Source: Rhizobium tumorigenes
GTDB lineage: Bacteria > Pseudomonadota > Alphaproteobacteria > Rhizobiales > Rhizobiaceae
Assembly: GCF_003240565.2 (NCBI RefSeq)
Contig: NZ_CP117255.1
Span: forward strand, 3,082,501 to 3,146,500
Length of the DNA stretch: 64,000 nt
Direction: 5' to 3'
Every line of letters begins with the position of its first letter. Positions within the stretch are counted from its first letter, which is position 1. This document shows, one piece after another, positions 9,774-63,436 of the stretch. Position numbers and translations under genes: made by a program. The notes under the pieces were generated by a model. That model was not told the origin of the DNA, made no database searches, and saw only the letters and a list, made by a program, of their open reading frames with translations.

Positions 9774-10451
9774 ATGTCCGAGAATTTACAAAACTGGCAG
9801 CCGCGCCCGCGTCCGGAGCGCAAGATCCTCCAGGGCCGCTACGTCCGCCTGGAACCCCTGAATGCCGTGCAGCATGGCGACGGGCTGTACGAGGCCTCCG
9901 CAGTATCAGACATCGATAGTCGATTTGCATGGTTACCGGATTATCCTCCAGAAAACCGGGCGGCCTTCCAGCCATGGCTCGACAATGCCGAAACAAGCAA
10001 TGATCCACTCTTTTTCACATTAATCGACGAGGCAAGCGGCAAGGTCGCAGGGCGCCAGGCTCTGATGCGGATCGAACCGGCACCCGGTGTGATCGAGATC
10101 GGCAATATCTACTGGGGGCCACTCGTTTCCCGCAAGCCGGCAGCCACCGAGGCGTTCTTCCTTTTTGCCAGCTACATCTTCGACGAACTCGGCTACCGCC
10201 GCTACGAGTGGAAGTGCAACAACCGCAACGATCCGTCAAAGCGGGCCGCAGAGCGATTTGGCTTCCAGTTCGAGGGCATTTTTCGCCAGCATCTCGTGGT
10301 GAAGGGCGAAAACAGAGACACGGCTTGGTTTTCGATCATCGACAAGGAATGGCCGGCATTGCGAGAAGCCTACATAGCCTGGCTCGATCCGGACAATTTC
10401 GACGCGGATGGAAGGCAAAAACGCCGGCTCGAGGAGTTTCGCGCCGGCTGA
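9774..10451 (+). CDS. GNAT N-acetyltransferase, RimJ/RimL-like
   Basis: A 225-aa acetyl-CoA-dependent transferase. The family pattern is a beta strand RYVRLEPL near residue 25, GNIYWGPLVSRKPAATEAFFL in the acetyl-CoA-binding region, and WKCNNRNDPSKRAAERFGFQFEG near residue 150, which is the conserved end of YdaF/RimJ-type proteins. A strong ribosome site GGAGGCGCTAC precedes ATG 9774. It stands alone on the plus strand and converges on opgC with only 5 bp between stop codons. Targets of such enzymes range from ribosomal protein N-termini to antibiotics or amino acids; nothing here decides between them. Confidence 0.88.
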   Translation: MSENLQNWQPRPRPERKILQGRYVRLEPLNAVQHGDGLYEASAVSDIDSRFAWLPDYPPENRAAFQPWLDNAETSNDPLFFTLIDEASGKVAGRQALMRIEPAPGVIEIGNIYWGPLVSRKPAATEAFFLFASYIFDELGYRRYEWKCNNRNDPSKRAAERFGFQFEGIFRQHLVVKGENRDTAWFSIIDKEWPALREAYIAWLDPDNFDADGRQKRRLEEFRAG

Positions 10452-54667: not shown

Positions 54668-54757
54668 TGGCGGAGAGGGTGGGATTTGAACCCACGGTGC
54701 CCTTGCAGGCACGCCGCATTTCGAGTGCGGTACATTCAACCACTCTGCCACCTCTCC
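54668..54757 (-). tRNA. tRNA-Ser, anticodon CGA (UCG codons)
   Basis: A 90-nt class II tRNA read from 54757 to 54668. The acceptor arm GGAGAGG pairs with CCTCTCC, followed by discriminator G and an encoded CCA. The D arm is GCAGAGTGGTTGAATG, and the anticodon loop reads CTCGAAA with anticodon CGA. The long serine-type variable arm is GTGCCTGCAAGGGCAC, and the T arm is GTGGGTTCAAATCCCAC. All stems pair as expected. A promoter candidate lies at 54791-54819. Confidence 0.98.
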
Positions 54758-60728: not shown

Positions 60729-61355
60729 GTGACAGCAGACCGTATCGACGCGCCCTATCTGCGCATGCCCCATGCCGAGCGTGGAATGGTCGTCGGCCTG
60801 TTCGGCGGATCCTTCAATCCGCCGCACCCGGGACATGTGCTGGTTGCCGAGATTGCCATCCGTCGGCTTGGCCTCGATCAGCTGTGGTGGATGGTGACGC
60901 CGGGCAACCCGCTAAAAAACACCAACCAGCTCGCCCCCTTGGCAGAACGCATCGCCCTCAGCGAAAAGATCGCCGTCGATCCGCGCATCAAGGTGACCGG
61001 CTTCGAGCAGGCGCTCAATATGCGCTACACGGCCGATACGCTGGCCCGCGTCAAGGCGCTGAACAGCCACGTGCATTTCATCTGGATCATGGGCGCCGAT
61101 AGCCTGAACACGTTCCACAAATGGCAGAAGTGGCAGACCATCGCCAAGACTTTCCCGATCGCCGTGATCGATCGTCCGGGTTCGACGCTGTCGCACCTCT
61201 CGGCAAAGATGGCGAAGACCTTTCACTACGCCCGCGTCGATGAAGACGACGCAAGGGTTCTGTGGAAGAAGCGAGCACCGGCCTGGACATTTATCCACGG
61301 CCCGCGCTCGACGCTGAGCTCGACCGCGCTCCGCGAAGAACAACAGAAAACCTGA
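60729..61355 (+). CDS. nadD: Nicotinate-nucleotide adenylyltransferase
   Basis: 208 aa with GTG start at 60729, one base behind the proA stop. Makes nicotinate adenine dinucleotide for NAD synthesis. MVVGLFGGSFNPPHPGHVLVAEIA is the nucleotidyltransferase site, MVTPGNPLK and MGADSLNTFHKWQKW are NadD-specific, and LSSTALRE near the end is the second (ISxxxxR-like) motif. Last gene of the obgE operon. The next ~500 bp have no coding gene on this strand. Confidence 0.95.
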   Translation: MTADRIDAPYLRMPHAERGMVVGLFGGSFNPPHPGHVLVAEIAIRRLGLDQLWWMVTPGNPLKNTNQLAPLAERIALSEKIAVDPRIKVTGFEQALNMRYTADTLARVKALNSHVHFIWIMGADSLNTFHKWQKWQTIAKTFPIAVIDRPGSTLSHLSAKMAKTFHYARVDEDDARVLWKKRAPAWTFIHGPRSTLSSTALREEQQKT

Positions 61356-61383
61356 ATTTCCGAAGTTTAAAACCCTCCAAAAT

Positions 61384-61502
61384 GAAAAGCCCGACGGGGG
61401 AGGAGATCCGTCGGGCCTATCAAAACTGATCGACAACCGGGAGGAGGAGTGTCATCGATCCAAAATCGAATGGCGCTGGGAGGAGGAGTGCGCCGTTCGA
61501 TG
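61384..61502 (-). ncRNA. alpha-r14 / NfeR1-like trans-acting sRNA with three anti-Shine-Dalgarno loops (cuckoo RNA family)
   Basis: Read on the minus strand this ~119-nt segment folds into three consecutive hairpins, each displaying a CUCCUCC-type loop. Hairpin 1 (61467-61499): CGAACGGCGC / GCGCCATTCG with loop ACTCCTCCTCCCA. Hairpin 2 (61428-61460): GATCGA / TCGATC with CACTCCTCCTCCC in the loop. Hairpin 3 (61389-61416): GCCCGACGG / CCGTCGGGC around ATCTCCTCCCC, followed by TTTT, is the rho-independent terminator. This layout is what is described for the alpha-r14 family (NfeR1/Smr14C2 in Sinorhizobium) and the CCUCCUCCC cuckoo RNAs, which pair with ribosome sites of many mRNAs, largely for transporters, with help from Hfq. 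A -10-like CTAGAT lies at 61509-61514; the exact 5' end is estimated. It converges on nadD, so its terminator may also serve that operon. Confidence 0.88.
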
Positions 61503-61870
61503 AGTTGAATCTAGCACAGCTGTCGAGAAGTAAAATCGTTGATATCGCAACGCAGCCATGCATTTTACACATGACAGAAAAGTGCAAATGCACAAAATTA
61601 AATCTTTCGTAAGCTTTCGCGCGAGATCACGCCGACCACCTACACTGTTGACGACGTCCTGCCGTCAAAAGACGCTGGCGGGGCATGTTGCAGCCTGATC
61701 GGTGTCACAAGGGCCTATAGAGCCATGCGCAATCGACCAAGTCAGTAGGGAATACCAATCGGCGAAATCTCTGAAATCATTATCGATTGATCGTGTTGAC
61801 GAAACCGACACTGGTCAAATCATGCGAAGCGATATATTCCTGCAAATACTTCGCCAATTTGGAGATTGCC
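61503..61870. other. Non-coding gap between the sRNA and modA
   Basis: About 370 bp, AT-richer than its surroundings. It holds the sRNA promoter (minus) and the modA promoter and operator (plus). No supported gene: the frames 61702-62076 and 61787 upstream of modA look like leader sequence. Confidence 0.5.
61824..61854 (+). promoter_or_regulatory. Dyad upstream of modA, candidate molybdate (ModE/Mop) operator
   Basis: GCGAAG (61824-61829) and CTTCGC (61849-61854) flank an AT-rich core containing CGATATATT. It ends 16 bp before the modA start. ModE-type regulators bind such dyads with an ATAT core to shut off modABC when molybdate is plentiful. Assignment rests on position and symmetry; no regulator gene is visible. 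Confidence 0.4.
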
Positions 61871-62662
61871 ATGCCGACCAGCCATTCCTGGATGAAATTT
61901 GCCGCCACAGCCGTTGTTGCAGGCTGGCTCGGACTGACCACCGGCGCTTCCCCCTCGGCAGCGGCGGACAAAATAACCGTGTTTGCTGCCGCCAGCATGA
62001 AGAACGCCCTCGACAGCGCAAACGCCGCTTACACCGCCCAGAGCGGCAAGCAGATCACCGTGTCCTATGCCGCTAGTTCGGCGCTCGCAAAGCAGATCGA
62101 GAGCGGCGCACCTGCCGATATCTTCATTTCGGCCGACACCGACTGGATGGCCTACCTCGGCAACAAGAACTTGCTGAAGCCGGATACGCAGGTAAACCTT
62201 TTAGGCAACCAGATCGTCCTCGTTGCTCCGCGCGACAAGGCAAAGCCGGTCGATATCAAGGCCGGCATGGATCTCGCCGCCCTCCTCGGCGACGGTCGCC
62301 TGGCGATGGGCCAAGTCGATTCCGTACCAGCCGGTAAATACGGCAAGGCAGCCCTCGAAAAGCTCGGGGTCTGGCCTTCCGTCGAAAGCAAGGTTGCCGG
62401 TGCTGAAAGCGTGCGCGCTGCGCTGGCGCTGGTGTCGCGTGGCGAGGCACCTTACGGAATTGTCTACCAGACGGATGCCGCGTCCGATCCGGGCGTCGCC
62501 ATCGTTGGCACGTTTCCGGCGGACAGCCACCCGCCGATCATCTATCCGCTGGCCATCACTGCCAGCAGCAGGAACAAGGACGTCGACGCTTATTACGACT
62601 TCCTCAAATCGTCCAAGGCGGAGCCTTTCTTCGAACACGAAGGTTTCACCATCCTGAACTGA
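61871..62662 (+). CDS. modA: Molybdate-binding periplasmic protein
   Basis: 263 aa from ATG 61871, chosen because GGAGATTGCC precedes it and the signal peptide (MKFAATAVVAGWLGLTTGASPSAAA) then starts near residue 8. Mature protein follows ModA: ITVFAAASMKNALDSANAAY, SYAASSALAKQIESGAPADIFISADTDWM, and AESVRAALALVSRGEAPYGIVYQTDAA near the end, containing the Ser, Val and Tyr oxyanion contacts. Receptor of the high-affinity molybdate importer, supplying enzymes such as the YdeP-like oxidoreductase upstream. First gene of modABC. Confidence 0.96.
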   Translation: MPTSHSWMKFAATAVVAGWLGLTTGASPSAAADKITVFAAASMKNALDSANAAYTAQSGKQITVSYAASSALAKQIESGAPADIFISADTDWMAYLGNKNLLKPDTQVNLLGNQIVLVAPRDKAKPVDIKAGMDLAALLGDGRLAMGQVDSVPAGKYGKAALEKLGVWPSVESKVAGAESVRAALALVSRGEAPYGIVYQTDAASDPGVAIVGTFPADSHPPIIYPLAITASSRNKDVDAYYDFLKSSKAEPFFEHEGFTILN

Positions 62663-62737: not shown

Positions 62738-63436
62738 TTGGAGGGATGGCATTTAAGCAGTGACGAGTGGACGGCGATCTTGCTTAGCCTGCGCGTCGCT
62801 AGCGTGGCCATGCTGGTGAGCCTGCCATTCGGGGTCGCCGCAGCGCTGCTTCTGGCTCGCGGCCGGTTCTTTGGAAAATCGCTGCTGAACGGGATCATCC
62901 ACATGCCGCTGATCCTGCCGCCGGTCGTCACCGGTTTTCTGCTGCTGATCCTGTTCGGCCGCCGCGGCGTCATCGGCGCCTTCCTCGAAAGCCATTTCGG
63001 CATCGTCTTTTCTTTTAGATGGACCGGCGCTGCGCTTGCCTGCGGAATCATGGGGTTCCCGCTGATGGTACGCAGCATCCGGCTGTCGCTGGAAGCCGTC
63101 GACCGCAAGCTGGAGGAGGCTGCAGGAACGCTGGGTGCCAGTCCCGTGTGGATATTCCTCACCGTCACCCTGCCGCTTACGCTCCCCGGTATCATTGCCG
63201 GCATGATCCTCTCATTTGCCAAGGCGATGGGGGAATTCGGCGCCACTATCACCTTCGTCTCCAACATTCCCGGCGAAACACAGACGCTTTCGTCGGCAAT
63301 CTATACCTTCACCCAGGTCCCCGGCGGAGATGCCGGCGCGCTGAGGCTCACCGTCGTCGCGGTGCTGATTTCCATGACCGCGCTGCTGGCGTCCGAGTTT
63401 CTAGCCCGATGGGTCGGCCGCAGGGTGGACGCCTGA
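62738..63436 (+). CDS. modB: Molybdate ABC transporter permease
   Basis: 232-aa inner-membrane permease with five to six spans. [22 protein letters not shown] and [48 protein letters not shown] stretches (the EAA loop with GEFGAT) are typical ModB/CysT-type sequences. It starts at TTG 62738 ([21 protein letters not shown]) with AGGGAAAGAG upstream; no better ATG exists in the first 20 codons. 75 bp behind modA; its stop overlaps the modC start (TGATG). Confidence 0.94.

Follow-up and report, generated by a model that had tools for sequence, protein, structure and literature searches.

A nadD-linked member of the αr14 small RNA family in Rhizobium tumorigenes, with three anti-Shine-Dalgarno hairpins and a putative LsrB/VtlR box

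Directly behind nadD of Rhizobium tumorigenes, the minus strand carries repeated anti-Shine-Dalgarno (anti-SD) motifs, which raises the question to which RNA they belong and what such an RNA might do. In the window, i.e. the whole stretch of 64,000 nucleotides that was analysed, the Rfam model ar14 (RF02344) matches the minus strand in full length (model positions 1-123) with 104.1 bits in Infernal, well over the gathering threshold of 58.8 (E = 3.9e-18 with both strands of the whole window searched), and a tRNA is the only other match at gathering level. An earlier note, made from the sequence alone, had postulated an αr14/NfeR1-like small RNA (sRNA) at 61384-61502, within a few bases of the Rfam match at 61382-61506, and had named the ar14 model as the appropriate check; the identity is supported by this score and by compensatory stem changes (see below), with "NfeR1-like" applying at the level of the family. 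The locus is thus a further, ordinary member of the already published αr14/NfeR1 family. With a probability of roughly 0.93, it encodes an LsrB/VtlR-activated αr14 sRNA of about 120 nt, the loops of which would block GGAGG ribosome sites of trans-encoded mRNAs. A permissive cmscan of 61000-62000 gave CcsR1 (31.6 bits) and ar7 (24.9 bits) as runners-up at the same place, and CCUCCUCCC is common to the loops here and those of CcsR1, which is what can be said for placing the RNA in the CcsR group or in ar7 instead of ar14. Both scores are far under the gathering values of these families (65.3 for CcsR1, RF02791; 60 for ar7, RF02342) and more than 70 bits below that of ar14, and such a membership is refuted by them for practical purposes. 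The CcsR1-4 RNAs of Rhodobacter sphaeroides share the CCUCCUCCC loops, but have two hairpins in the Rfam model and are described as processed from the ccaF1 operon transcript (PMC10253847). Membership in ar15 (RF02345) was rejected as well, with 18.3 bits at the sRNA and a cut-off of 40.

The sRNA gene (61382-61506, minus strand, about 120 nt, from cmscan and fold) follows the plus-strand genes obgE, a frame at the usual place of proB, proA, and nadD. It is convergent with nadD (60729-61355, plus; NF000845, 365.1 bits, cut-off 210; start codon from the list of open reading frames), with 26 nt from the nadD stop codon to the Rfam match and no overlap with the nadD coding sequence, and divergent from modA (61871-62662, plus; NF007958, 275.6 bits, cut-off 253; start assumed), after which modB begins at 62738 (plus; NF006939, 371.1 bits, cut-off 262). 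A protein-coding reading was judged spurious by eye: the 174-aa minus-strand frame in question (60912-61436) has a TTG start inside the sRNA and then runs antisense through nadD. The sole tRNA found in the window is a tRNA-Ser (cga) at 54668-54757 on the minus strand.

On the minus strand, CACTCCTCCTCCC occurs twice and TCTCCTCCCC once, every time in a hairpin loop, and the three hairpins with anti-SD loops that the earlier note had described are confirmed by sequence, Rfam alignment and fold. Hairpin 1 (61465-61501) exposes the first anti-SD copy in the loop ACTCCTCCTCCCA, hairpin 2 (61428-61460) the second in the loop ACTCCTCCTCCCG, and hairpin 3 (61387-61418), which is the terminator stem, the third in the loop ATCTCCTCCC, followed by a T-rich tail. 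The full motif CCUCCUCCC is found in loops 1 and 2; loop 3 reads AUCUCCUCCC, so that it contains CUCCUCCC, one base short. Folding of 61375-61510 results in these three hairpins with a minimum free energy of -51 kcal/mol (z -4.97), and none of 200 shuffled sequences was equally stable. In the predicted structure, stem 1 has one C-A mismatch, stems 2 and 3 contain some G-U pairs, and stem 3 runs into TTTTCATTTT, the initial two T of which close the stem. The intrinsic terminator that is typical of αr14 RNAs is thus present at hairpin 3, with an 11-pair stem and a T-rich tail. A consensus terminator scan of 61300-61900 did not return the sRNA terminator; the scanner has a loop limit of 8, and the loop of hairpin 3 comprises 10.

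The structure is maintained in relatives. This comparison is based on a sequence alignment of 65 distinct nadD-linked copies, and the pairs were those of the window's Rfam structure plus two from the window's fold. Pairing is found in 95.0% of 2063 cells, and the compensatory changes that the earlier note had expected in related genomes are seen in 12 of 33 pairs, which changed on both sides and kept the pairing (mean of shuffled alignments 6.3; reached by 0 of 500), in agreement with the αr14 trait that stems vary yet stay paired. Twelve of the 33 stem pairs are invariant. The covariation score is 0.159, compared with 0.096 in shuffles (reached by 0 of 500), and further pair types, 31 versus 27.3 in shuffles, are less striking (reached by 8 of 500). 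When the register is slid, no more than 47.4% of the cells pair, a comparison that favours the true register, with the structure being drawn from one of the aligned sequences. Among the single helices, helix 1 is paired in 85.2% of cells with double-sided changes in 5 of 12 pairs, its innermost pair forming in only 5 of the 65 sequences and its outermost pair having letters in one row only; helix 2 is paired in 99.8% (double-sided changes in 4 of 10 pairs) and helix 3 in 100% (3 of 11 pairs). All 65 relatives have the three TCCTCCC cores, and 62 of them have the longer CTCCTCCTCCC twice, 3 have it once. Mean column identity is 0.961 in the loops, 0.910 in the stems and 0.736 elsewhere. The claim that the stems differ while the loops agree holds for the three hairpins of the window copy. 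Among the orthologues, however, the terminator stem with 0.963 is conserved like the loops (stem 1, 0.873; stem 2, 0.898).

Hairpin 3 may also end nadD transcription. On the plus strand (61382-61420), T-rich bases follow this hairpin in many of the 65 relatives, and the tail in the window is CTATCA. If this were the main role of the locus, hairpin 3 would essentially terminate nadD, or the RNA would act in cis on the nadD 3' end, and the convergent arrangement with only 26 nt in between as well as the T-rich bases in the relatives fit such a function. It is nevertheless highly improbable: the plus-strand tail of the window, CTATCAAAA, has no T run, an antisense action on nadD would have to do without overlap with its coding sequence, and a purely terminating role would leave both the three conserved anti-SD loops and the box upstream of the sRNA unexplained.

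The place behind nadD is conserved in close relatives of this strain. A scan of genome contigs with NadD resulted in 475 confirmed loci, the best 80 of which were kept; these are the closest relatives by construction and are labelled as Rhizobium or as Rhizobiales/Rhizobiaceae bacterium. In all 80, five or more overlapping CTCC[CT]CC matches form a cluster on the opposite strand, 31-258 nt past the NadD match, and the ar14 model matched in 3 of 3 of these loci to which it was applied. In the search of the family, 148 of the 151 genomes had a NadD match, and the best 30 loci comprised three from the genus, the own locus among them, and 27 from other genera. Infernal detected ar14 in the other two loci of the genus and in none of the 27 best-scoring other-genus loci, two of which have lone loop-motif matches on the opposite strand without a cluster; 20 further downstream stretches of other genera, about 900 nt each, were likewise without ar14, so that the count is 0 of 47 examined nadD loci of other Rhizobiaceae genera. 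The family RNA itself is widespread: ar14 is present anywhere in the genome in 108 of 121 family genomes (E <= 1e-9) and in all 60 genomes that were sampled from the genus, with 3-9 matches each (E <= 0.001). Since nadD-linked copies are absent from the 47 other-genus loci although most genomes of the family contain ar14, the position seems to have been gained at the level of the genus, by a copy that changes its place. "Fragmented" and "local" microsynteny has been described for such RNAs in a 2011 survey (PMC3927594). In open-licence main texts, nothing was found on a nadD-linked sRNA, which may be listed in supplements or in the Rfam full alignment: the main text of PMC3927594 mentions neither nadD nor proA, that of PMC2881028 none of nadD, proA and modA, searches on "ar14" and on CUCCUCCUCCC together with sRNA gave nothing relevant, and on Smr14C2 there was one review.

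Another conserved element lies upstream of the sRNA. The orthologue alignment revealed the sequence GCATGGCTGCGTTGC at 61547-61561 (minus strand), 40 nt upstream of the Rfam match, a putative LsrB/VtlR box that fits the site consensus GCAT-N3-TG-N3-T given for VtlR/LsrB (PMC7486931, PMC8844928). The box was matched in 80 of 83 nadD-linked copies, in each of which the first loop follows 57-59 nt later, and the remaining three differ at one position. A putative -10 hexamer, CTAGAT (61509-61514, minus), was recognized by eye and is of a TAAAA type in many of the alignment rows listed; a clear -35 element was not seen by eye upstream of the sRNA, and a consensus scan of 61300-61900 gave no minus-strand promoter. 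Transcription of the minus strand would begin near 61501-61506 and end at the hairpin-3 terminator, which would result in an RNA of about 120 nt, and it is most likely that the LysR-type regulator LsrB/VtlR activates this transcription at the box.

In the 5.98-Mb genome, the degenerate box GCATNGCTGCNNTGC has nine exact matches, compared with one for the reversed control. As αr14 and AbcR upstream regions served to derive it, finding it there is in part circular, but its rarity elsewhere is not. Four matches precede all four above-cut-off αr14 copies, two precede AbcR copies (two of the three in this genome), and three lie elsewhere: judged by eye, one is some 150 nt ahead of a guaB-like frame, another falls between two genes, and the last is within a long frame. 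The box distribution points to LsrB/VtlR as a possible switch that the strong αr14 copies within one genome share. The box is nevertheless no general mark of the αr14 family, because outside the genus only 6 of 28 best-scoring αr14 loci carry it; in the genus it is found at 28 of 30, a set that overlaps the nadD copies. At least one strict box was found in 106 of 121 family genomes. A symmetrical form with up to 3 mismatches had 30 matches listed in the own genome (1 and 1 in the controls); the box of the window, further from the genus form, is absent among these listed matches. The box before the guaB-like frame (IMP dehydrogenase, by eye; G000:C1:335968-335982, L195) could belong to an mRNA of the same regulon or could be a chance match.

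In this genome, a LysR-family gene (Pfam HTH_1 and LysR_substrate) adjoins the AbcR pair. None of the 25 NCBIfam models listed for it (of 55) reaches its cut-off, and as lsrB is described to stand beside the AbcR pair in S. meliloti (PMC8844928), it is by its position named a putative LsrB. The tandem AbcR pair (L193/L196, G000:C1 about 2008574-2008900) lies between this gene and an ArsR-like frame (by eye). Only the second AbcR copy of the pair has an exact box, which resembles the difference between AbcR1 (LsrB) and AbcR2 (RpoH1) in S. meliloti. AbcR1/2 (αr15, RF02345) and NfeR1 have predicted targets in common, and the shared upstream box is a further likeness; AbcR1/2 have a separate family model, and they are described as interacting with Hfq, which NfeR1 does not (PMC8844928).

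As to the function, the three stems would each present CUCCUCC in a loop, for pairing with GGAGG at the ribosome sites of trans-encoded mRNAs, and this pairing would block translation; in S. meliloti, the targets are two ABC-transporter solute-binding proteins and ntrB. Functional marks of NfeR1, the studied member of the family, are an NtrC repressor site (TGC-N11-GCA) upstream and a transcript of about 115-123 nt that is induced by nitrogen stress and salt. The three loops of NfeR1 have been reported to be redundant at translation starts, ntrB to be silenced via the loops, and the gene to be activated by LsrB and repressed by NtrC (PMC10746234), and it is by analogy to this work that LsrB activation, redundancy of the three loops, and the same kind of targets can be expected here. 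Since NfeR1 is reported to be Hfq-independent (PMC10746234), co-immunoprecipitation with Hfq, which the earlier note had proposed, is a poor test for this sRNA. The Hfq-independence of this studied family member, the conserved position at nadD and the promoter box are additions beyond that note.

One of the published NfeR1 targets is ntrB. The genome has an ntrC (696.5 bits) with a histidine kinase frame just upstream as the ntrB candidate (193.5 bits, with a cut-off of 240 in the NR(II) model), and the assumed ATG of this candidate is preceded by AGGAGG, which is compatible with targeting, not evidence for it. The earlier note had also considered targets within the window, based on GGAGG sites near 9774, 7337, 21744 and 22067. 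These do lie 5-6 nt before an ATG each (start status assumed), but with 51 occurrences on the plus strand of the window and 57 on its minus strand, GGAGG is too common for this argument, which was rejected; beyond such sites, nothing points to local targets.

NfeR1 (Smr14C2, SmelC397) of S. meliloti shares with the nadD-linked copy the family model (αr14, RF02344), the three hairpins, the three anti-SD loops, and an LsrB-type box upstream. It differs in that its LsrB motif, described as TGCA-N6-GCAT, lies at -72 to -60 with the NtrC site further upstream (PMC10746234), whereas the box here is 40 nt before the Rfam match. The "cuckoo" RNAs of the 2011 Rhizobiales survey, SmelA075 with three and SmelA099 with four hairpins, also have repeated CCUCCUCCC hairpins and several copies per genome (PMC3927594), and with its three hairpins the nadD-linked copy differs from SmelA099 in their number. 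Related transcripts have been seen experimentally in A. tumefaciens (C1, L5) and S. meliloti (PMC3927594). In S. meliloti, Northern blots reliably showed only one of the six copies under the conditions tested (PMC7143759), and for this reason the nadD-linked copy could be silent.

This scattered occurrence of family copies is also what could make the nadD-linked locus a decaying, untranscribed "cuckoo" paralogue that kept its αr14 look only by recent duplication, and the own genome indeed has a weak copy with 54.2 bits in addition to four copies above the cut-off. Decay is very unlikely at nadD, because it would not maintain the same place in 80 of 80 named loci, the compensatory stem changes of the relatives, and the near-constant spacing of the upstream box in 80 of 83 copies; of the nine exact boxes, none is near the weak copy. 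An active αr14 sRNA is therefore the preferred reading, and the nadD locus is a well-supported addition, kept across close relatives, to a riboregulator family that affects rhizobial nodulation and nutrient uptake, while existing knowledge of the family is unchanged by it.

A more tentative idea, which we regard as possible but rather doubtful, is that the Rhizobium box GCATNGCTGCNNTGC marks mainly anti-SD sRNAs (6 of 9 exact matches before αr14 or AbcR, including all four above-cut-off αr14), and that the boxed copies, including the genus-fixed nadD copy, are turned on in concert and add up to a single, dose-controlled brake on GGAGG mRNAs, in contrast to S. meliloti with its one reliably detected copy out of six; nadD read-through transcripts with complementary GGAGGAG stretches could then act as a sponge.

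Among the other copies of this genome, the weak ar14-like one (L005 1501-1615; G000:C1:1652167-1652281) is perhaps decaying. The copies at C1:3375321 and C2:707236, for which Rfam scored three-hairpin matches, fold into four hairpins, like SmelA099. The fourth hairpin is a 5' anti-SD hairpin in both (L002 1460-1630, G000:C1:3375280-3375450; L004 1495-1672 minus, G000:C2:707230-707407), and as their terminator hairpins are nearly identical, it is suggested that one of the two copies derives from the other.
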